A stretch of DNA of 64,000 bases. Origin: Natronomonas salina. Its GTDB lineage: Archaea > Halobacteriota > Halobacteria > Halobacteriales > Haloarculaceae. The notes below the pieces were generated by a model, which saw only the letters and a list, made by a program, of their open reading frames with translations, searched no databases and was not told the origin of the DNA. Positions 43,622 to 51,368 of this stretch are shown here, in pieces (position 1 is the stretch's first letter; each line of letters opens with the position of its first letter). A program made the position numbers and the translations under genes. The DNA lies in contig NZ_CP058335.1 of NCBI RefSeq assembly GCF_013391105.1, positions 3,162,001 through 3,226,000 of the forward strand, given 5' to 3'.

Positions 43622-44662
43622 CTACGCCTCCATGCTGAGCGCGTCCGAGAGCTCGTCGACAAGCTCCTCCTGGCTGAGGTTCGCCTGGATGTCGTGTTCC
43701 TTCGCGAGCGACTGCAGCTCGCGGTACGACAGGTCCTCGAGGTCGTCCTCGCTCGAGGGCTGCGGCGTGTCGTCGTCGCCTTCCGACTCGTCGCCCGACT
43801 CCGAATTGGCTTCCTGCTCGTCGCCCTCGGCTTCTTCGTCCTCCGCTTCGGCTTCCTCGTCGCCCCCCTCGGACTCCGCTTCGCTCTCGTCCTCCGACGC
43901 CTCGGAATCCGACTCGTCCTCGCTTTCGGCCTCGATCTCCTCTTCGTCGGATTCGGACTCGGCGTCGTCCGTCTCCTCGCCTTCGTCCTCGGCGTCCGCT
44001 TCGGACGCCTCGTCCTCCCCCTCGGACTCCTCGCCTTCGTCCTCGGCCTGCTGGTCGTCCGACGCCGCTTCGTCGCCGTCCTCGCTCTCGTCCGTAGCTT
44101 CCTCGGACTGACCGTCCTCGGCCTCGGCGTCTTCGGACCCCTCGTCGCCGTCCTCGGACGTCATCGCCTGCTCGACGGCGGAGGCGATCTTGTCGGTCAC
44201 GTCGTCGCTGTCCGAGTCACCGCCCGAGTCATCGGAGAGGGCGGCCTCGACCGACTCCGTGATGGTGCTGGCGAGGTCGGACTGGTCGCCGTCGTCGCTC
44301 GCCTCCTCACCTCCGTCCTCGGCACCCTCCTCCGATTCGCCTTCGGCTTCCGTTTCGCCGTCCCCCTCGGACTCTTCGTCGCTATCTTCGGCGGACTCCT
44401 CGTCGCCGTCCTCGGCGGACTCCTCGTCCTCGTCGTCGCTGAGGCTCTCCCGGATGGCCTCCTCGATCCAGGCGCCGAGCTTCTCGCCGATCCGGCGGCC
44501 GACGAGCGCGCCGACGGCGCCGCCCAGGTCCTCGCTGGTGGGCTGTCCGCTCTCGCTGTCGATGGCTCCTTCCAGCTCCGTGCCCTCGAACAGTTCCTCG
44601 TAGTCGATCTTCTCGAGCAGCTCCTCGGTGTCCATGCGGTCGACGAGAGATGTATCACTCAT
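43622..44662 (-). CDS. very acidic protein with C-terminal SAP-like domain, gas-vesicle locus
   Basis: 346 residues from the ATG at 44662 (MSDTSLVDRMDTEELLEKID). N-terminal amphipathic helices contain LGGAVGALVGRRIGEKLGAWIEEAI. Two similar helical segments (DLASTITESVEAALSD, DVTDKIASAVEQAM) sit in a long Asp/Glu/Ser-rich disordered stretch (about 200-305). A C-terminal domain of about 35 residues, LSYRELQSLAKEHDIQANLSQEELVDEL, resembles a SAP/Rho-N helix-extended-helix. It is the last gene of the gvpA-gvpO arm. It is not a known gvp gene and could be a scaffold or surface protein in the GvpC manner. Confidence 0.72.
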   Translation of the reverse strand: MSDTSLVDRMDTEELLEKIDYEELFEGTELEGAIDSESGQPTSEDLGGAVGALVGRRIGEKLGAWIEEAIRESLSDDEDEESAEDGDEESAEDSDEESEGDGETEAEGESEEGAEDGGEEASDDGDQSDLASTITESVEAALSDDSGGDSDSDDVTDKIASAVEQAMTSEDGDEGSEDAEAEDGQSEEATDESEDGDEAASDDQQAEDEGEESEGEDEASEADAEDEGEETDDAESESDEEEIEAESEDESDSEASEDESEAESEGGDEEAEAEDEEAEGDEQEANSESGDESEGDDDTPQPSSEDDLEDLSYRELQSLAKEHDIQANLSQEELVDELSDALSMEA

Positions 44663-44687
44663 TGGTTGTGGAGATCGGAAACGGGAG

Positions 44688-45626
44688 TCACGCGCTCGCG
44701 GCCGCCTCTTCGGCGTCGGACTCGCCACCGTCGTCGGAGGTGTCGAGGAGCTGGTTGACGATCTCCTGGAGGAACTGCGCGAGCAGCTCCTCCAGCGGCA
44801 GCGCGGAGATGATCGACGACCCGGCGTCGTCGATGGCGCTGCGGATGCCGTCGGCGATGTAGCCGGCCAGCTCCTTCGCGCGCTCCATCGGGTGCACGTC
44901 GGGGAGCAGGCCCGAGCTCTCGCCTTCCTCACCTTCCTCGCCTTCCTCGTCACCCTCGCGGCCGCCGAGCAGCCCGCTGAGCGGGTTGTCCGGCATCTCG
45001 GGTATCAAGCTCGACAGCGGGTCGCCGCCCAGCAGGCCGCTGACCGCCGACAGCAGGTTGCCGAGCAGCTTCGACTCGCCCTCGACCGCGGTGAGGTCGA
45101 GCGTGACCGTATCGAGGTCGACCTCCAGGCCGAGCAGGTCGAGGAAGAGGCCGTCGATGTTCAGGTGGAGCAGGCGCGCGCCCTCGTCCGAGACGGCCTG
45201 CTCGCGCTCGGACTCCTCCTCTTCGGCTTCTTCACCTTCACCCTCGGCTTCTTCGCCGTCGCCTTCCGCTTCGGCGTCCTCCTCTGCCTCCTCGTCCTCA
45301 CCCTCGTCCGCTTCGGCCTCCTCTTCGTCTTCAGATTCGGCCTCGTCTTCGGCGGCCTCTTCCTCGTCTTCGCCCTCCGCTTGCTCCTCGTCGGACTCGT
45401 CGTCCTCCCCTTCCGCCTCCTGCTCGTCGCCCTCGGCGGATTCGCTCTCCTCGCTCTCTTCGCTCTCAGCGTCCGCCTCCTCGGCGTCCGTCTGCTCCTC
45501 GGAGGCTTCCTGGTCGTCCGCCGATTCGTCCTCCTCTTCCGGCTCCTCCATCTGACCGCCGTCCGGGAGCAACACTCTGACGCCGACGCCGCCGGTGCTC
45601 GACTCCGGAGCATCTCGAGAATCCAT
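44688..45626 (-). CDS. very acidic protein with hydrophobic C-terminal domain, gas-vesicle locus
   Basis: 312 residues from the ATG at 45626 (MDSRDAPESSTGGVGVRVLL). Residues about 25-150 are an almost pure Glu/Asp/Ala/Ser repeat. A folded domain follows: LLHLNIDGLFLDLLGLEVDL, then DTVTLDLTAVEGESKLLGNLLSAVSGLL (about 155-200). This is a pattern seen in bacterial and haloarchaeal extracellular or structural proteins. The C-terminus carries amphipathic helices, YIADGIRSAIDDAGSSIISALPLEELLAQFLQEI. It lies 66 bases after the zinc protein and 25 before the other acidic gene, all on one strand with gvpA. Possibly a gas-vesicle surface or storage protein; unproven. Confidence 0.72.
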   Translation of the reverse strand: MDSRDAPESSTGGVGVRVLLPDGGQMEEPEEEDESADDQEASEEQTDAEEADAESEESEESESAEGDEQEAEGEDDESDEEQAEGEDEEEAAEDEAESEDEEEAEADEGEDEEAEEDAEAEGDGEEAEGEGEEAEEEESEREQAVSDEGARLLHLNIDGLFLDLLGLEVDLDTVTLDLTAVEGESKLLGNLLSAVSGLLGGDPLSSLIPEMPDNPLSGLLGGREGDEEGEEGEEGESSGLLPDVHPMERAKELAGYIADGIRSAIDDAGSSIISALPLEELLAQFLQEIVNQLLDTSDDGGESDAEEAAASA

Positions 45627-45692
45627 ATCTCATACGACGCGGGAAAAACGGTTAGTCGGGATGCCTGCACCTGCAGGTTCCCGGGGGCGGCC

Positions 45693-46028
45693 TCAGTCGG
45701 GTGACGGGGTGAACGACTCCCGGCAGTCGAGGCAGACGTGGGACTCGCGGTTCAGCGCCGTCGCGTTCTTCTCGCTGAGCGCGCCCTTGCTCGCGAGCTT
45801 CGCGGCGCCGATCCCAGACTTGTAGACGTCGTCGGCGCTGCCGCAGGACGGGCACTCGGCGTCGCTGCCGTCCTCCAGTCGCTCGATGCGCCGCTGCAGC
45901 TTGTCGACCCGGGCCGAGACGTCCTCGATGACGTCCTCGTCTTCCTCGTCGGCGCGGGCGATCATCTCGACGGCCTCGGCCAGCTCCACCGGCTCGTCCA
46001 CCCAGGGGAGATCGACTGTCTCGCTCAT
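45693..46028 (-). CDS. zinc-ribbon coiled-coil protein, gas-vesicle locus
   Basis: 111 residues from the ATG at 46028 (MSETVDLPWVDEPVELAEAV). A short coiled coil, DVIEDVSARVDKLQRRIERLE (about 32-52), is followed by a zinc ribbon with CPSCG (about 59) and HVCLDCRESF (about 97). The gap between pairs is about 35 residues. It starts 5 bases after the gvpO stop, so it is part of the gvpA-O operon. It is not a standard gvp gene; it could be a regulator or assembly factor. Confidence 0.72.
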   Translation of the reverse strand: MSETVDLPWVDEPVELAEAVEMIARADEEDEDVIEDVSARVDKLQRRIERLEDGSDAECPSCGSADDVYKSGIGAAKLASKGALSEKNATALNRESHVCLDCRESFTPSPD

Positions 46029-46033
46029 GGGCC

Positions 46034-46591
46034 CTAGATGTCGTGGTTCATGTCGTCGCGGCGGTACCGGTGGGTCCGCTGGTAGCCGGTGACCGACAGG
46101 TCGTCGGTGAGCTCGATCTCGTAGCGGCCGAGGATGTCCTGGGTGTCCGGGACCGACTTCCGCTCGACCACCTCGACGGCGACCCGCCAGCCGCTGTCCG
46201 TGCTGTCGATGCTCGTTATCCCGTCGAGGGGATGGCCGACGACACCCTCGGCGGTCTCCTGTACGGTCTGGCGAACCTCCCCGATCTCGGTCTCCGCCGT
46301 CTGTGAATCACTGGATGACATTTGGGTATCCTGGTCGTCCGTCTCGCCCGTCGATTCGTCGCCCCCTTCGTCCCCGTCGGCGTCCCCGGCTCCGTCGACG
46401 GTCTCCTCGCGGTTTTCGTTCTCGTCGGGGTCACCATCGTCGCCGCCGTCTCCGTCCTCGGCGTCGTCGATAGTCTCGTCCGACGAATCGTGCTGGTGAC
46501 AGAAGCCGTCGTCCTGCGCGGGGCGCGAACAGCGGTCACCGTCGCCGGTGACCGCCTTGCACTGTTCTTCGTCCGAATCAGTCGTCGACAT
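46034..46591 (-). CDS. gvpO: gas vesicle protein GvpO with N-terminal zinc-knuckle module
   Basis: 185 residues from the ATG at 46591. The C-terminal 95 residues are GvpO: VRQTVQETAEGVVGHPLDGI, GWRVAVEVVERKSVPDTQDILGRYEIELTDDLSVTGYQRTHRYRRDDM. Before it lie an acidic linker and an N-terminal module with Cys11, Cys21, Cys31 and His34 (CKAVTGDGDRCSRPAQDDGFCHQH). The module resembles the small zinc-binding motif found in some secreted and nuclease proteins. GvpO is required for gas-vesicle formation in haloarchaea. The fusion is not part of the usual GvpO. It lies 21 bases after gvpA. Confidence 0.88.
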   Translation of the reverse strand: MSTTDSDEEQCKAVTGDGDRCSRPAQDDGFCHQHDSSDETIDDAEDGDGGDDGDPDENENREETVDGAGDADGDEGGDESTGETDDQDTQMSSSDSQTAETEIGEVRQTVQETAEGVVGHPLDGITSIDSTDSGWRVAVEVVERKSVPDTQDILGRYEIELTDDLSVTGYQRTHRYRRDDMNHDI

Positions 46592-46612: not shown

Positions 46613-46906
46613 TCACTCCGCCTGCGCTTCCGGGTTCGGGGACTCCGACTGCTCGATGTCGATGTCCTGGAGGTTGTCCAGATCACCCCCGTCCTCGACC
46701 TCCGCCTCCGCGGCTTCGATCTTGGATATCTCCTTGGCGTAGTGCAGGAAGGTGTCGACCGAGGCGACCACGACCCGGGCCTCGACCGTCAGGATCTCGA
46801 TACCGACGAGCGAGACCCTGGCCCAGACGTCGATGACGACGCCCTTGTCGAGGATGCGGTCGAGGACCTCCACGAGGCTGGAACTGCCTGGTCTGGCTGA
46901 ACTCAT
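46613..46906 (-). CDS. gvpA: major gas vesicle structural protein GvpA
   Basis: 97 residues from the ATG at 46906. The core, [56 protein letters not shown], is the canonical GvpA helix-strand-strand-helix, which assembles into the hollow shell wall. Haloarchaeal GvpA proteins are commonly about 76 residues. Here an acidic tail of about 25 extra residues ([20 protein letters not shown]) is attached. It is the first gene of the left-arm operon and is divergent from gvpF. Confidence 0.95.
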
Positions 46907-46996
46907 GTGTCATACAATCGAGCCGACAGGTGGGTAGGTGTTCGGCTTGCATACTCAGGCACCGTACTGTTGAGAGTGCGAGACCTCGTACTAGCC
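46907..46996. promoter_or_regulatory. divergent gvpA/gvpF promoter region
   Basis: Only 90 bases separate the two start codons, so both operons share this region. A GAGTATGC box (46957-46950, read toward gvpA) lies about 44-51 bases before gvpA, which would leave a leader of about 20 bases, as gvpA genes often have. For gvpF, a start close to the ATG is likely, but no strong TATA box is visible. No clear GvpE-type activator site was seen by eye. Confidence 0.5.
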
Positions 46997-47626
46997 ATGG
47001 CAGACAACGCCCTCTACGCCTACGGCGTCATCGAGCAGGAGGACCTCGAGTTCGACACCGACGGGGTCGAAGGGGCGGAGCGGGCGTACACGGTCGACCA
47101 CCGGACCCTGTCGGCGCTCGTGACCGACATCGACACCGTCGAGCCGGAGGCGACCGACGAGAACGCCCAGCGACACAACGAGGTGCTGCAGACCCTCCTC
47201 GAGCACGACGGCGGCCGCACCGTCGTCCCGATGCAGTTCGGGATGGCGTTCAAGAACAAGCGGACGCTCAAGAGCGTCCTCCGGGAGACCCGCCCGGCGT
47301 TCCGGCGGGCCCTCCGGGAGGTCGACGACAAGGTCGAACTCGGCCTGAAGGTCCTCGTCGACGAGGACGCCGACGTCGACCGGGCGGCCGTCGAGGCGGA
47401 GGTCTCCGAGCGCTTCGAGGACATCGCCGAGGGGTCGACCGACGACGACCTCTTCAGCGACCGGCTGGTCGTCAACCGCTCGTTCCTCGTCGACCGCGAG
47501 AACCGCGACGCCTTCGACGACGCCGTCGGCGCCTTCGAGGACGACCACGACGACCTCCTCGTCCAGTACACGGGGCCGTGGGCGCCGTACAACTTCGTCG
47601 AGATCGAGATCGGGGCGAAGCGATGA
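46997..47626 (+). CDS. gvpF: gas vesicle protein GvpF
   Basis: 209 residues from the ATG at 46997 (MADNALYAYGVIEQEDLEFD). The GvpF/GvpL family fold shows in LYAYGVIEQ, HNEVLQTLLEHDGGRTVVPMQFGMAFKNK and the closing VQYTGPWAPYNFVEIEIG. GvpF is an accessory protein that binds GvpA during early assembly. It is the first gene of the right arm, and its stop overlaps the gvpG ATG (ATGA). Confidence 0.94.
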   Translation: MADNALYAYGVIEQEDLEFDTDGVEGAERAYTVDHRTLSALVTDIDTVEPEATDENAQRHNEVLQTLLEHDGGRTVVPMQFGMAFKNKRTLKSVLRETRPAFRRALREVDDKVELGLKVLVDEDADVDRAAVEAEVSERFEDIAEGSTDDDLFSDRLVVNRSFLVDRENRDAFDDAVGAFEDDHDDLLVQYTGPWAPYNFVEIEIGAKR

Positions 47627-47880
47627 CCATCATCGTCGACGACCTCCTGGTGCGGCCGTTCTTCCAGGTGCTCGAATCGCTGCAGGCCATCGCCATGAAC
47701 GAACTCTACGACATCGAGGACATCAGGGACCGCATGAAAGAGAACCAGCTACTCTACGAGATGGGCGAGCGCGACGAGGAGGAGTACCAACAACGCCGCC
47801 GCGAACTCGAGGCCGAACTCGAGGTCGCCGAGCAGGCCCACGAACAGCTGAGCGACAAGTCCATCGAGGTGCGCGGATGA
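47623..47880 (+). CDS. gvpG: gas vesicle protein GvpG
   Basis: 85 residues from the ATG at 47623, overlapping the gvpF stop. It starts MTIIVDDLLVRPFFQVLESL and continues as a long charged helix, MKENQLLYEMGERDEEEYQQRRRELEAELEVAEQA, the usual GvpG pattern. GvpG is an essential accessory protein acting with GvpF and GvpL. Its end overlaps the gvpH start by 4 bases. Confidence 0.93.
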   Translation: MTIIVDDLLVRPFFQVLESLQAIAMNELYDIEDIRDRMKENQLLYEMGERDEEEYQQRRRELEAELEVAEQAHEQLSDKSIEVRG

Positions 47881-48380
47881 GCGACGAACGAGACGGAGCC
47901 GACGACGACGACGAGACCGAGCGACAGGGCGGGCTCCTCGGCGGCATCCGGAGCGTGCTGGAGGCGCTGGCCGACGCCGAGCGGGACGGGAAGTCCCGCA
48001 TCAGCCGCAGACGTCGCTCGTCGAAGGGACGGTTCTCGACCGAGTCGGGCTTCTCGGTCCGGGTCGGTCGCCCGTCCTCGGGGTCAGACGCGAACTCGAT
48101 CAACGACCGCAGCTCCGCGAGCGACCAGCGGGACGTCGACCACCACGTCGACGTCCGGCACGACGACGACGGCCGGCTCGTGGTCGTCGCCGACCTGCCG
48201 AACGTCGACCCCGACGACCTCACCGTCGGCCTCGACGAGGAGACCAACGAACTCGTGGTCGGCGTCGAGGACCGGGCCGTCGAGCGGCTGGCGCTGCCCT
48301 GGCCCGTCGACGACGTCGAGGGGCGGTTCAACCACGGCGTCCTCGAACTGCGCATCACGGCGACGGAGGACGCGTCATGA
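47877..48380 (+). CDS. gvpH: gas vesicle protein GvpH (Hsp20-like)
   Basis: 167 residues from the ATG at 47877. An acidic then basic N-terminus (GLLGGIRSVLEALADAERDG) precedes an alpha-crystallin-type domain (about 85-165): HVDVRHDDDGRLVVVADLPNVDPDDLTVGLDEETNELVVGVEDR and FNHGVLELRIT. This is the Hsp20-like layout of haloarchaeal GvpH, thought to act as a chaperone for other Gvp proteins. Junctions on both sides are ATGA. Confidence 0.92.
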   Translation: MSDERDGADDDDETERQGGLLGGIRSVLEALADAERDGKSRISRRRRSSKGRFSTESGFSVRVGRPSSGSDANSINDRSSASDQRDVDHHVDVRHDDDGRLVVVADLPNVDPDDLTVGLDEETNELVVGVEDRAVERLALPWPVDDVEGRFNHGVLELRITATEDAS

Positions 48381-49363
48381 GCGACGCCGAAGCCGAGGGG
48401 GAGACCGAGGACGAGGTCTTCGACCCGGAGCGGCTGGCCGACCTCGTCGGCCAGATCGGCGAGTACGTCACCGAGATCAAGCGGGCGATCGTCGACGACG
48501 AGGACGGCGGCGACATCGTCGAACTGGCGGAGGACCTCTGGGAGGTCCTCGAGGAGCTGGAGGAGCTCCTGGAGACCCTGGACTTCGAGGAGCTGCCCGA
48601 GGCCATCGACGTCGAGGACATCCCCGAGGCCGTCGACGTCGAGGACATCCCCGAGGGGCTGTTCGACGAGGACGAGTCGGCGATCGACCTCGGGGACGTC
48701 ACCGAGGCGGTCAACCTCCGGGAGCTGTGGGACGCCGTCGACCTCACGCAGTTCCTCCAGGAGAAACGCGAGTTCGAGGCGGCCGTCGACGACGTCACCG
48801 ACGACGAGGACGGCGACGGCGACGGCGAGGAGGACGACGGGATGTTCGAGAACGTCGTCGACATGGACGGCGCGGACGCCTCCTTCGAGCAGAGCGCCCG
48901 CCAGCAGTTCATCGAGGAGAAGATCCTGGCCGCCGTCGAGAAGTTCCGGTCGGCGCTGCTGTCGACCCACGACGGCCTCCGGAAGATCTACCGGGAGAAC
49001 CAGAAGAAGCTCGGCCAGGAGGGCAACCAGCCCGACTCGCTGAACCCGACGGCCCGGTCGACGATGCCGCCGGGGCCGCTCCCGGACTCCATCTCGACGC
49101 GCACCTCGACGGTGCCGTCGCAGGTGAAGTACTCCCGGGCGGACAACCCGCGGCGCATCTTCGGGCGGCGGTTCAAGGAACGGCACGACGACGAGGACTC
49201 GCGGACGACCAGCGCCGACGCCGACGCCGAGGAGTCGACCGACGCCGACAGCGAGGGCGCCGACACGGACGGTGCGACCGCCGACGCCGAAAGCGAGAGC
49301 GAGAGCGAGAGCGAGAGCGACGACGACGCGCCGGAGATCGAGGTGTTCGAGGAGAATGAGTAG
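48377..49363 (+). CDS. long acidic protein in the gvpI position
   Basis: 328 residues from the ATG at 48377. In haloarchaeal loci gvpI lies here, between gvpH and gvpJ, but usual GvpI is about 110-145 residues and basic. This protein has an acidic N-terminal helical part (VGQIGEYVTEIKRAIV, LEELEELLETLDFEELPE) with two copies of a nine-residue repeat EAI/VDVEDIP. It then has a middle segment with helix QQFIEEKILAAVEKFRSALL. A more basic part follows (about 205-280: LNPTARSTMPPGPLPDSIST, RADNPRRIFGRRFKERH), and this may be the GvpI-equivalent. A Ser-Glu repeat ends it. Homology to GvpI is positional only. Confidence 0.75.
   Translation: MSDAEAEGETEDEVFDPERLADLVGQIGEYVTEIKRAIVDDEDGGDIVELAEDLWEVLEELEELLETLDFEELPEAIDVEDIPEAVDVEDIPEGLFDEDESAIDLGDVTEAVNLRELWDAVDLTQFLQEKREFEAAVDDVTDDEDGDGDGEEDDGMFENVVDMDGADASFEQSARQQFIEEKILAAVEKFRSALLSTHDGLRKIYRENQKKLGQEGNQPDSLNPTARSTMPPGPLPDSISTRTSTVPSQVKYSRADNPRRIFGRRFKERHDDEDSRTTSADADAEESTDADSEGADTDGATADAESESESESESDDDAPEIEVFEENE
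48599..48652 (+). repeat. two tandem 27-base repeats in the gvpI-position gene
   Basis: Units 48599-48625 and 48626-48652 differ by one base and code for EAIDVEDIP and EAVDVEDIP. Confidence 0.85.
49292..49320 (+). repeat. AGCGAG hexamer repeat
   Basis: About five copies of a six-base unit code for a Ser-Glu run near the C-terminus of the gvpI-position protein. Such a run could vary in length by slippage in whole codons. Confidence 0.85.
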
Positions 49364-49940
49364 TGGAAAACCTACACGCGACCAGGCGGACCTGGCGGAG
49401 GTCCTCGAGCTGGTCCTCGACAAGGGCATCGTCATCAACGCGGACATCGCGGTCACGGTCGGGGAGACGGAACTGCTCGGCATCGAGCTCCGGGCGGCCA
49501 TCGCCTCCTTCGAGACCGCCGCCAAGTACGGGCTGGCCTTCCCGAGCGGGACGGACATGCGCCGGGTCGAGCGGGCCTCCGGCCGCGAACCGCTCGAGGA
49601 CGACGACGAGCCGATCGACCTGGGGATCGACGCCAGTTCGGGCGGGAGCCGGGAGGACGACGAGAGCGACGGCGACGGCGGCAGCAGCCGAGCGGCGGCG
49701 GCGCCCGCGGCGCCCAGTCAGCGACCGACGCCCCAGGTCCCGACGGACGACGACGATGGGGGCGAAGGCAGCAGCGTCGACGACGCCGACCAGAGCGGGG
49801 ACGGCGACGGGGAGGGCCCGGACGCCGCTCCCGACGAGTCGGGGTCCGAAGACGGGAGTGACGACGACGGAGATGGCCAGGACGGCTCGGCGGCGGACTC
49901 GAGCGACGAGGAATCTGCGAGCGGCCAGGAGGACACATGA
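49356..49940 (+). CDS. gvpJ: gas vesicle protein GvpJ with long acidic tail
   Basis: 194 residues from the ATG at 49356, overlapping the previous gene by 8 bases. The first 70 residues are a GvpA-related domain: DLAEVLELVLDKGIVINADIAVTVGETELLGIELRAAIASFETAAKYGL. Beyond about residue 85 comes an unusual tail rich in Asp, Ser, Gly and Glu (about 110 residues); the family is normally near 110 in total. GvpJ is a minor wall or cap protein of the GvpA fold. The end overlaps gvpK by 4 bases. Confidence 0.92.
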   Translation: MSSGKPTRDQADLAEVLELVLDKGIVINADIAVTVGETELLGIELRAAIASFETAAKYGLAFPSGTDMRRVERASGREPLEDDDEPIDLGIDASSGGSREDDESDGDGGSSRAAAAPAAPSQRPTPQVPTDDDDGGEGSSVDDADQSGDGDGEGPDAAPDESGSEDGSDDDGDGQDGSAADSSDEESASGQEDT

Positions 49941-50257
49941 AGCACATCGAACTCGACGACGAGGAGGGCGACGGCGGCGCCTCGGGGCTGATGGCGCTCG
50001 TCGTCACGGTGATCGAACTGCTCATCGAGACGATGGAGCGGGAGGCCATCCGGCGCATGGAGTCCGGGCAGCTCGACCCCGAGGAGATCGAACGGCTCGG
50101 CGCGCAGCTCCAGGCGCTGGAGGAGGAGATGGAGGCCATCAAGGCCGACCAGGGCATCGACGAGAACGTCGAACAGCTCCGCGGCGACCTGGACTCGCTT
50201 GTCTCCGAGGCCGTCGAGCAGGTCCGCGACCAGGAGTTGGAGGGGATCGACGGATGA
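49937..50257 (+). CDS. gvpK: gas vesicle protein GvpK
   Basis: 106 residues from the ATG at 49937. The family core GLMALVVTVIELLIETMEREAIRRMESGQLDPEEIERLGAQLQALEEEME is complete, followed by a helical charged end. GvpK is an accessory protein required for gas vesicles in haloarchaea. Overlaps of 4 bases on both sides show translational coupling. Confidence 0.95.
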   Translation: MKHIELDDEEGDGGASGLMALVVTVIELLIETMEREAIRRMESGQLDPEEIERLGAQLQALEEEMEAIKADQGIDENVEQLRGDLDSLVSEAVEQVRDQELEGIDG

Positions 50258-51099
50258 GCGACACCGACGAGCCGAGCGGCGACGCCCAGACGTCCCTCGA
50301 GTTCGACGAGGGGCGGTACGTCTACTGCGCCGTCAACGCGGACGACGGCGCGACCTTCGCCGCGGAGGGCCTGGAGGGCGGCGACGTCTCCCTCGTCGTC
50401 CGGGACGGTATCGGCGCGGTCGTCCAGCCCGTCGACTCCGTCTTCGACTCCGACGACGTGACGCAGGTCCGCAGCTGGCTGCTCGACCACCAGGGGGTCG
50501 TCGACGACGCCGCCCAGCGGTTCGGCACGCCGATCCCCTTCCGCTTCGACACCATCCTGAAGGGCGGCGACGCGACCGTCCGCGAGTGGCTCGACGACCA
50601 CCGCTCGGAGCTCGAGGACGCCCTCGAGTGGCTCGACGGGCGCTGGGAGTACCGGGTCCGCGTCGAGTGGGACGAGGAGGCGATCGCCGACGAGATCCTC
50701 GAGGCCGACGGCGAACTCCGCGAACTGGCCGCACGCGCGGAGACCGCCGACGAGGGGACCGGCTTCCTGCTGCAGAAGCAGTACCAGCAGCAGCTCTCCG
50801 AGCGCCTCGAGCAGCACCGCGGAGCCGTCGAGGAGCAGCTCCACGAGGCGATCGAACCCCACGCCGTCGAACTGCAGCGCTCCGGCGGTGCGTCGGTGCT
50901 CTCCGAGGAGGACGACGACGCCGGCAGGGAGACGGTCGCCGACCTGTCGCTGCTGGCCGACGAAGCCGACGAGGAAGCGATCGGCGACGCGCTGGAGCCC
51001 TACGCGGACCACGGCGCCTACGAGGTCTCCTACACCGGGCCGTGGCCGCCGTACAGCTTCGCACCCGAGATCGGCGACGGGGGTGGCGAGGGCCCGTGA
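50254..51099 (+). CDS. gvpL: gas vesicle protein GvpL
   Basis: 281 residues from the ATG at 50254. It is a GvpF/GvpL family member: RYVYCAVNADDGATF, the FGTPIPFRFDTILKG segment, LLQKQYQQQLSERLEQHRGAVEEQLHE and the closing YEVSYTGPWPPYSFAPEIG. GvpL is thought to gather other accessory Gvp proteins at the start of assembly. Length is normal. It overlaps gvpK and gvpM by 4 bases each. Confidence 0.94.
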   Translation: MSDTDEPSGDAQTSLEFDEGRYVYCAVNADDGATFAAEGLEGGDVSLVVRDGIGAVVQPVDSVFDSDDVTQVRSWLLDHQGVVDDAAQRFGTPIPFRFDTILKGGDATVREWLDDHRSELEDALEWLDGRWEYRVRVEWDEEAIADEILEADGELRELAARAETADEGTGFLLQKQYQQQLSERLEQHRGAVEEQLHEAIEPHAVELQRSGGASVLSEEDDDAGRETVADLSLLADEADEEAIGDALEPYADHGAYEVSYTGPWPPYSFAPEIGDGGGEGP

Positions 51100-51368
51100 A
51101 GCCGACCAGAGACGACGGCCACGCCATCGTGGACGTCCTCGACGTCCTCCTGCGGGAGGGCGCGATGGTCCAGGCCGACGTGCTGATCACGGTCGCCGAC
51201 ATCCCGCTGGTGGGGATCAACCTCCGGGCGGCCGTCGCGGGGATGACGACGATGCGGGAGTACGGCTTCTTCGAGAACTGGGACCTCGAGACGCGGCGGA
51301 TGGGCAAGGAGCGCCGCGCGAGCGGTCACGGGCGGCCGGACCCCGAAATACCGGGGTCCGACGAGTGA
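51096..51368 (+). CDS. gvpM: gas vesicle protein GvpM
   Basis: 90 residues from the GTG at 51096, overlapping the gvpL stop (GTGA). It is GvpA-related: HAIVDVLDVLLREGAMVQADVLITVADIPLVGINLRAAVAGMTTMREYGFF. GvpM is an accessory wall-type protein kept at low amount and is needed for assembly. It is the last gene of the right arm; no gvpN follows within the window. Confidence 0.92.
   Translation: MKPTRDDGHAIVDVLDVLLREGAMVQADVLITVADIPLVGINLRAAVAGMTTMREYGFFENWDLETRRMGKERRASGHGRPDPEIPGSDE

Follow-up and report, generated by a model that had tools for sequence, protein, structure and literature searches.

Introduction

Gas vesicles are studied and engineered, as ultrasound reporters and for antigen display, from a few model clusters, and GvpC is the standard surface handle. 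It is located on the outer vesicle surface, is stripped by low salt and strengthens the shell. In Halobacterium, GvpC consists of helical repeats, an acidic stretch and a terminal zinc finger, the last of which binds GvpF, GvpH, GvpI and GvpL as well as GvpN and GvpO (PMC9372576). GvpI of Halobacterium affects the vesicle length and binds GvpC (PMC9501494, PMC9372576). Eight Gvp proteins, A, O, F, G, J, K, L and M, are reported as essential (PMC9372576).

The clusters of Halopiger, Haladaptatus, Natrinema, Natrialba and Natronobacterium contain neither gvpC nor gvpDE, and the species of these five genera are reported as vesicle-negative, the cause being left unexplained there (PMC4390858). In the table of a 2022 review the same genera are given as gvpACNO (PMC9501494). 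The searches presented here agree with the former source and not with the review table.

The gas-vesicle locus of the window

The window is the whole stretch of 64,000 nucleotides analysed here (G000:C1:3162001-3226000), from a haloarchaeal genome of 3.75 Mb. Its relevant features are the following:

46613..46906, minus: gvpA, shell protein, 97 aa (PF00741 and NF046092 above cut-off)
46034..46591, minus: gvpO, 185 aa (PF05800, PF19067 and NF045806 above cut-off)
45693..46028, minus: zinc-ribbon (CPSC...CLDC) coiled-coil protein, 111 aa (homologues in gvp loci)
44688..45626, minus: acid1, 312 aa (alignment of 10; core profile)
45012..45185, minus: acid1 core domain, aa ~148-205, about 50 residues (alignments A3 and A5)
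43622..44662, minus: acid2, 346 aa (alignment of 15; profile; AF2)
44429..44536, minus: acid2 glycine-zipper helix, aa 43-78 (36 aligned homologues; AF2)
43640..43750, minus: acid2 SAP/Rho_N-like C-terminal domain, aa 305-341 (AF2, Foldseek)
48377..49363, plus: long acidic GvpI, 328 aa, between gvpH and gvpJ (matches Halobacterium GvpI)
46994..51368, plus: gvpF-G-H-(long I)-J-K-L-M, divergent from gvpA (Pfam/NCBIfam, position and tblastn)

The genes gvpF, gvpH and gvpJ were identified by Pfam/NCBIfam, and gvpG, gvpK, gvpL and gvpM by position and by tblastn to homologous clusters. The cluster encodes every one of the eight essential Gvp (A, O, F, G, J, K, L and M), so that differences are confined to the non-essential set. 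No gvpC, gvpN, gvpD or gvpE lies between or beside the gvp genes of the window. In the whole window genome GvpN has no match, and the GvpC model (PF05465) finds nothing over cut-off.

The original prediction placed three genes outside the classical gvp set, following gvpA-gvpO on the same strand. Coordinates, strand and gaps were confirmed (5 bases between gvpO and the zinc-ribbon gene, 66 between the latter and acid1, 25 between acid1 and acid2), and none of the three proteins matches a Pfam or NCBIfam family above cut-off. The genes are real and no chance reading frames, since all three are conserved in the gvp loci of nine other genomes. The extreme acidity ascribed to two of the proteins is also borne out (Asp+Glu 37% and 44%, pI 4.05). 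The mechanical list of reading frames starts acid2 at a GTG at 44953 (443 aa), whereas the aligned homologues begin at the MSDTSL-type Met at 44662 (346 aa) that the prediction had assumed.

The product of gvpO (46034-46591) carries an N-terminal extension with a Cys/His motif (PF19067/NF045806, QCKAVTGDGDRCSRPAQDDGFCHQH), followed by an acidic linker and the GvpO domain. By E-value, the window GvpA (46613-46906) is closer to those of Halalkalicoccus-type genomes (81%) than to those of its congeners G037 and G049, which suggests that the cluster was horizontally moved. Halalkalicoccus-type genomes (L035, L036, L043-L047, L052) have, besides the main cluster, several additional gvpA copies elsewhere, of which some seem to be orphans and others come with a partial H-I-J-K-M set (L043, L045); G201 and G216 have six gvpA matches each.

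The gene at 48377-49363 was considered as a fourth new family. This was ruled out by its match to Halobacterium GvpI and by hhalign, and the product is a long GvpI: it occupies the gvpI position and ends in a GvpI-type tail (NPTARSTMP..STVPSQVKYS..RIFGRRF). Its N-terminal helical part carries ELPEAIDVEDIPEAVDVEDIP-type repeats.

Sequence and predicted structure of the three proteins

In the alignment of 10, acid1 is organized as a VRVLLPDGG motif, an acidic disordered region, the LHLNIDGLFLDLLGLEVDL...LLGNLLSAV core, an acidic linker and C-terminal amphipathic helices; the core follows the pattern LHLNIDGLFLDLLGLEVDLDTVTLDLTA..LLGNLLSAV. The alignment of 15 for acid2 gives a glycine-zipper helix, a long acidic disordered middle and a SAP-like C-terminal domain. 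The two proteins had been described as combining disordered regions with different folded ends. This stands for acid2, with its SAP-like C-terminus in the AF2 model, but in acid1 the LLHLNIDGL segment (aa ~148-205) lies inside the protein and is succeeded by another acidic linker and then by conserved C-terminal helices. The acid1 core is modeled by AF2 with low confidence as a beta-hairpin plus helix, and the C-terminal helices with moderate confidence (pLDDT 75-87). Searches of 47 acid1 members against Pfam gave nothing solid. A GvpA-like origin of the core, considered for its LVGIEI/LLGLEV resemblance, was rejected (hhalign probability 0.1%), and neither acid1 nor acid2 shows similarity to GvpI.

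Homologues of the acid1 core form the C-terminal domain of certain Tat-exported proteins (GECPIL..IFLDLLGLQ..NLLGNLLCAVAGLLDP-stop); the window genome encodes one such protein (L202, G000:C1:923647-923808). The acid1 core being a cytoplasmic relative of this domain, the domain alone is not specific to gas vesicles. L202, L203-L207 and L209 are Tat-signal exported proteins ending in an acid1-core-like domain (NLLGNLLCAVAGLL). Such Tat-type second copies were seen, in this sample, only in genomes that also carry gvpA.

The acid2 zipper is a 36-residue segment in which G47-G51-G55-G59 are invariant among 36 aligned homologues, and which AF2 predicts as a single helix. The middle of the protein is modeled with low confidence and the tail as a confident three-helix fold (pLDDT 91-95). 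Many SAP/Rho_N folds are found among the Foldseek matches of the tail, with TMt 0.62-0.67 but non-significant E-values of 2.8-4.1. Against Pfam, 36 members gave nothing solid, the best being a weak Rho_N match (E=0.01) in 4 of the 36. Against PDB sequences, the acid2 profile gave chance acidic matches only.

The zinc-ribbon protein has homologues in 10 of 391 class genomes, and its four Cys are kept in the homologues translated. Its gene adjoins gvpO except in L048, where it lies ~2.6 kb downstream and the module is inverted. All ten loci also carry acid1 and acid2, the latter duplicated or triplicated in several of them (L034, L037, L038, L040, L048). The protein is a lineage-specific companion, a narrow add-on outside the core of the module.

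Distribution and linkage to gas-vesicle genes

The sample comprised 391 haloarchaeal genomes, one per species, searched for acid1 with a core profile (A3) and for acid2 with an N-terminus profile (A4). The co-occurrence with gvpA across haloarchaea that had been proposed as a check is found. A gvpA gene is present in 160 genomes, the acid1 profile matches 130 and the acid2 profile 142. Acid1 occurs in 129 of the 160 gvpA-positive genomes and in one of the 231 gvpA-negative ones (Fisher p=6e-72, uncorrected for relatedness). As this single genome, G137, has a GvpA-family gene over the Pfam cut-off, the association with a GvpA-family gene is 130/130; the zinc-ribbon homologues lie within a gvp locus in 10/10 cases. 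The refuting condition named with the prediction, a wide occurrence of the families where gas-vesicle genes are lacking, was not observed for acid1 and the zinc-ribbon protein. For acid2, the profile has matches in 11 genomes that lack a gvpA match; apart from G137, their best E-values range from 1.5e-5 to 7e-4, and they are taken as chance glycine-zipper matches. A tblastn against plasmids with the acid1 core gave no match, probably owing to masking by the low-complexity filter. Among 193 genomes from across the phylum, only haloarchaea had acid1, and the 53 named loci with acid1 in a GTDB scan are all haloarchaeal (Natrialba, Natrinema, Natronorubrum, Natronococcus, Haladaptatus, Halocatena, Halococcus, Halogeometricum and others).

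A purely phylogenetic or ecological co-occurrence, in aquatic haloarchaea with large genomes and with no functional tie to the vesicles, would agree with the many positives in one large family (f3) and with the presence of the acid1 core in Tat-exported proteins. Relatedness was handled via contrasts within families and within genera. In the family of the window genome (f1), acid1 is found in 9 of 12 gvpA-positive genomes and in none of the 20 gvpA-negative genomes listed. These contrasts, the 130/130 association, the position of the genes inside the gvp locus in several families and the GvpI homologue in the module make such a coincidence very improbable. The acid1/acid2 pair almost certainly belongs to gas vesicles.

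Modular organization and distant loci

The three genes had been regarded as one set at gvpA. They form such a set in the window, but the acidic pair is a module that can stand apart and in most cases lies at a great distance from gvpA. The relative place of acid1 and gvpA is known in 113 genomes: they lie within 15 kb in 24, are separated by 121 kb to 3 Mb on the same contig in 42 and are on different contigs in 47. In 89 of these genomes acid1 is thus on a different contig or more than 120 kb away from gvpA, and the link to gas vesicles nonetheless holds.

An acid2-type gene follows acid1 on the same strand in all 55 loci examined. In a control of the acid2-type pattern over 49 loci, it was found downstream in 49, upstream in 4 and on the opposite strand in 5. 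The usual order at distant loci is acid1, a short acid2a, acid2b with the SAP-like tail and a gene of ~280 aa with an STMP...STMP tail. By hhalign (98.4%, E 8e-15), this fourth gene, which distant modules often include, and the long GvpI are homologous. In Halocatena, the acid1/acid2 pair lies between gvpH and gvpI. PGAP labels the module genes as hypothetical proteins in Haladaptatus halobius and Halocatena salina, and no description of the module was found in the open-access papers searched.

Relation to GvpC, GvpN and GvpD

GvpC (PF05465) was tested in 80 gvpA-positive genomes. Multi-repeat GvpC is present in 13 of them, all acid1-negative; in another acid1-negative genome (L201, G239), inspection of the locus revealed a divergent GvpC that the model had not detected. 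Two genomes with single weak PF05465 repeats (G157 and G236, E about 5e-4) were left out of the count. GvpC thus occurs in 14 of the 31 acid1-negative genomes and in none of the 49 acid1-positive ones (p=2e-7). This exclusivity is partly phylogenetic, the GvpC-positive genomes being confined to families f1, f2 and f4, plus G239 in f3. Two genera hold both states: in g1 the window genome has acid1, and G037 and G049 have GvpC; in g18, G012 has acid1 and G018 has GvpC. About 17 of the tested genomes carry neither gene (11 acid1-negative loci were read), and hence neither is strictly needed. Two Halococcus loci of this kind contain an acid2-like zipper gene after gvpM. In L191 (2667-3257) and L193 (2265-2828), also without GvpC and acid1, a different acidic gene with a ERPVKEAVHEALDE-type motif lies just after gvpM, and is possibly a further accessory type.

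The module might alternatively replace the AAA-ATPase GvpN and not GvpC. The window genome, G012 and G184 all lack gvpN, yet GvpN is present in many acid1-positive genomes, often beside gvpA, and does not track acid1. This coexistence disfavors the replacement of GvpN; together with the lack of any ATPase family match in the module proteins, it leaves that reading with the slightest probability.

A regulatory role was also considered, in which the SAP-like tail would bind nucleic acid and acid1/acid2 would control gvp expression in the place of GvpD/GvpE. The SAP/Rho_N-like fold of the acid2 tail and the absence of true GvpD from the acid1-positive genomes tested are compatible with it. However, five GvpC-positive genomes lack both GvpD and acid1; the absence of acid1 therefore tracks GvpC and not GvpD, which contradicts a replacement of GvpD/E. 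Since, in addition, the proteins are extremely acidic outside the tail and gave no strong match to a DNA-binding family, a regulatory module is quite unlikely.

Proposed function

Acid1 and acid2 are probably an overlooked part of the gas vesicle that takes the place of GvpC, since they are found in most gvp-carrying haloarchaea, essentially only there, and never together with GvpC. The GvpC-like role first suggested as possible remains the best-supported guess given this exclusivity, but without the GvpC repeats in acid1. Acid1, acid2 and a GvpI-type partner could well form an accessory module used by most gas-vesicle haloarchaea instead of GvpC, with a role at the surface or in shape. That the module replaces GvpC in function while not being homologous to it is, in our judgment, an evenly balanced proposition. 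The reported vesicle-negative species with gvpC-less clusters (PMC4390858) count against this explanation.

The location on the vesicle, the docking and the mechanical effect that we infer would be as follows. Anchoring to the shell, or to the shell complex under assembly, would rely on the short beta/helix core and the C-terminal helices in acid1 and on the glycine-zipper helix in acid2. The long polyanionic regions would extend outwards and form a hydrated coat. As for the folded ends, the SAP-like acid2 tail and, in this lineage, the separate zinc ribbon may dock to GvpO, GvpI, GvpH or each other, in the manner of the GvpC zinc finger in Halobacterium. The outcome would be the control of vesicle shape, strength and dispersal.

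Acid1 and acid2 might instead be assembly factors or chaperones, which keep GvpA, GvpJ or GvpM in solution or serve to nucleate the shell, but form no part of the finished vesicle. The module contains a homologue of GvpI, GvpH and GvpI being accessory proteins; hydrophobic members of the GvpA family could be shielded by the glycine zipper; and in many genomes the module is apart from gvpA, as low-dose factors could be. Nevertheless, the main cluster already has all the essential assembly genes, the exclusivity with GvpC points to a structural or shape role, and in the window the genes stand behind gvpA-gvpO on one strand, separated by short gaps only. Assembly factors are, on this evidence, a possible but rather unlikely explanation.

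Returning to the replacement of GvpC, we tentatively suggest, as somewhat short of an even chance, that haloarchaeal vesicles have two alternative, non-homologous coats: a GvpC type and a "polyanion" type made of acid1, acid2 and the GvpI-like protein, usually encoded in trans, whose expression apart from the cluster may determine if a gvpC-less cluster yields vesicles at all. If most gas-vesicle haloarchaea do use an unrelated and often distant module, the parts list of the organelle is incomplete and heterologous expression of the cluster alone would miss components. The reason why species with gvpC-less clusters appear vesicle-negative would then become a testable question.

Comparison with known systems

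The Tat-exported haloarchaeal proteins with a NLLGNLLCAVAGLL end show clear homology to acid1 in the core. They differ in being exported, in having the domain at the very C-terminus and in the lack of gvp genes at the loci read, whereas the acid1 core is cytoplasmic; they also keep two Cys, both mostly lost in acid1 of the gas-vesicle type. The predicted fold of the acid2 tail resembles the small helical SAP, Rho_N and HeH domains; no significant sequence match to them was obtained in acid2, and nucleic-acid binding by the tail is putative. GvpI is homologous to the product of the fourth gene at the distant loci, and both have the STMP/STVP tail. The Halobacterium GvpI is short (144 aa) and basic, whereas that of the window has 328 aa and is acidic.

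The haloarchaeal GvpC (PF05465; Halobacterium salinarum pNRC100) is, like acid1 and acid2, a large, hydrophilic and acidic protein of a gvpA operon (a putative one in the window) that the minimal cluster does without, and it is phyletically complementary to acid1. The likeness between GvpC and the acid module is one of layout only: a helical part, an acidic stretch and a small folded (zinc) end. There is no sequence similarity, neither acid1 nor acid2 matches the 32-40-residue helical repeats of PF05465, and rib-spanning repeats are lacking. The acid1 and acid2 genes lie after gvpO or elsewhere, and not between gvpA and gvpN/gvpO as gvpC does. In contrast to GvpC, the function would be shared by at least two proteins, whose genes are often distant from gvpA.
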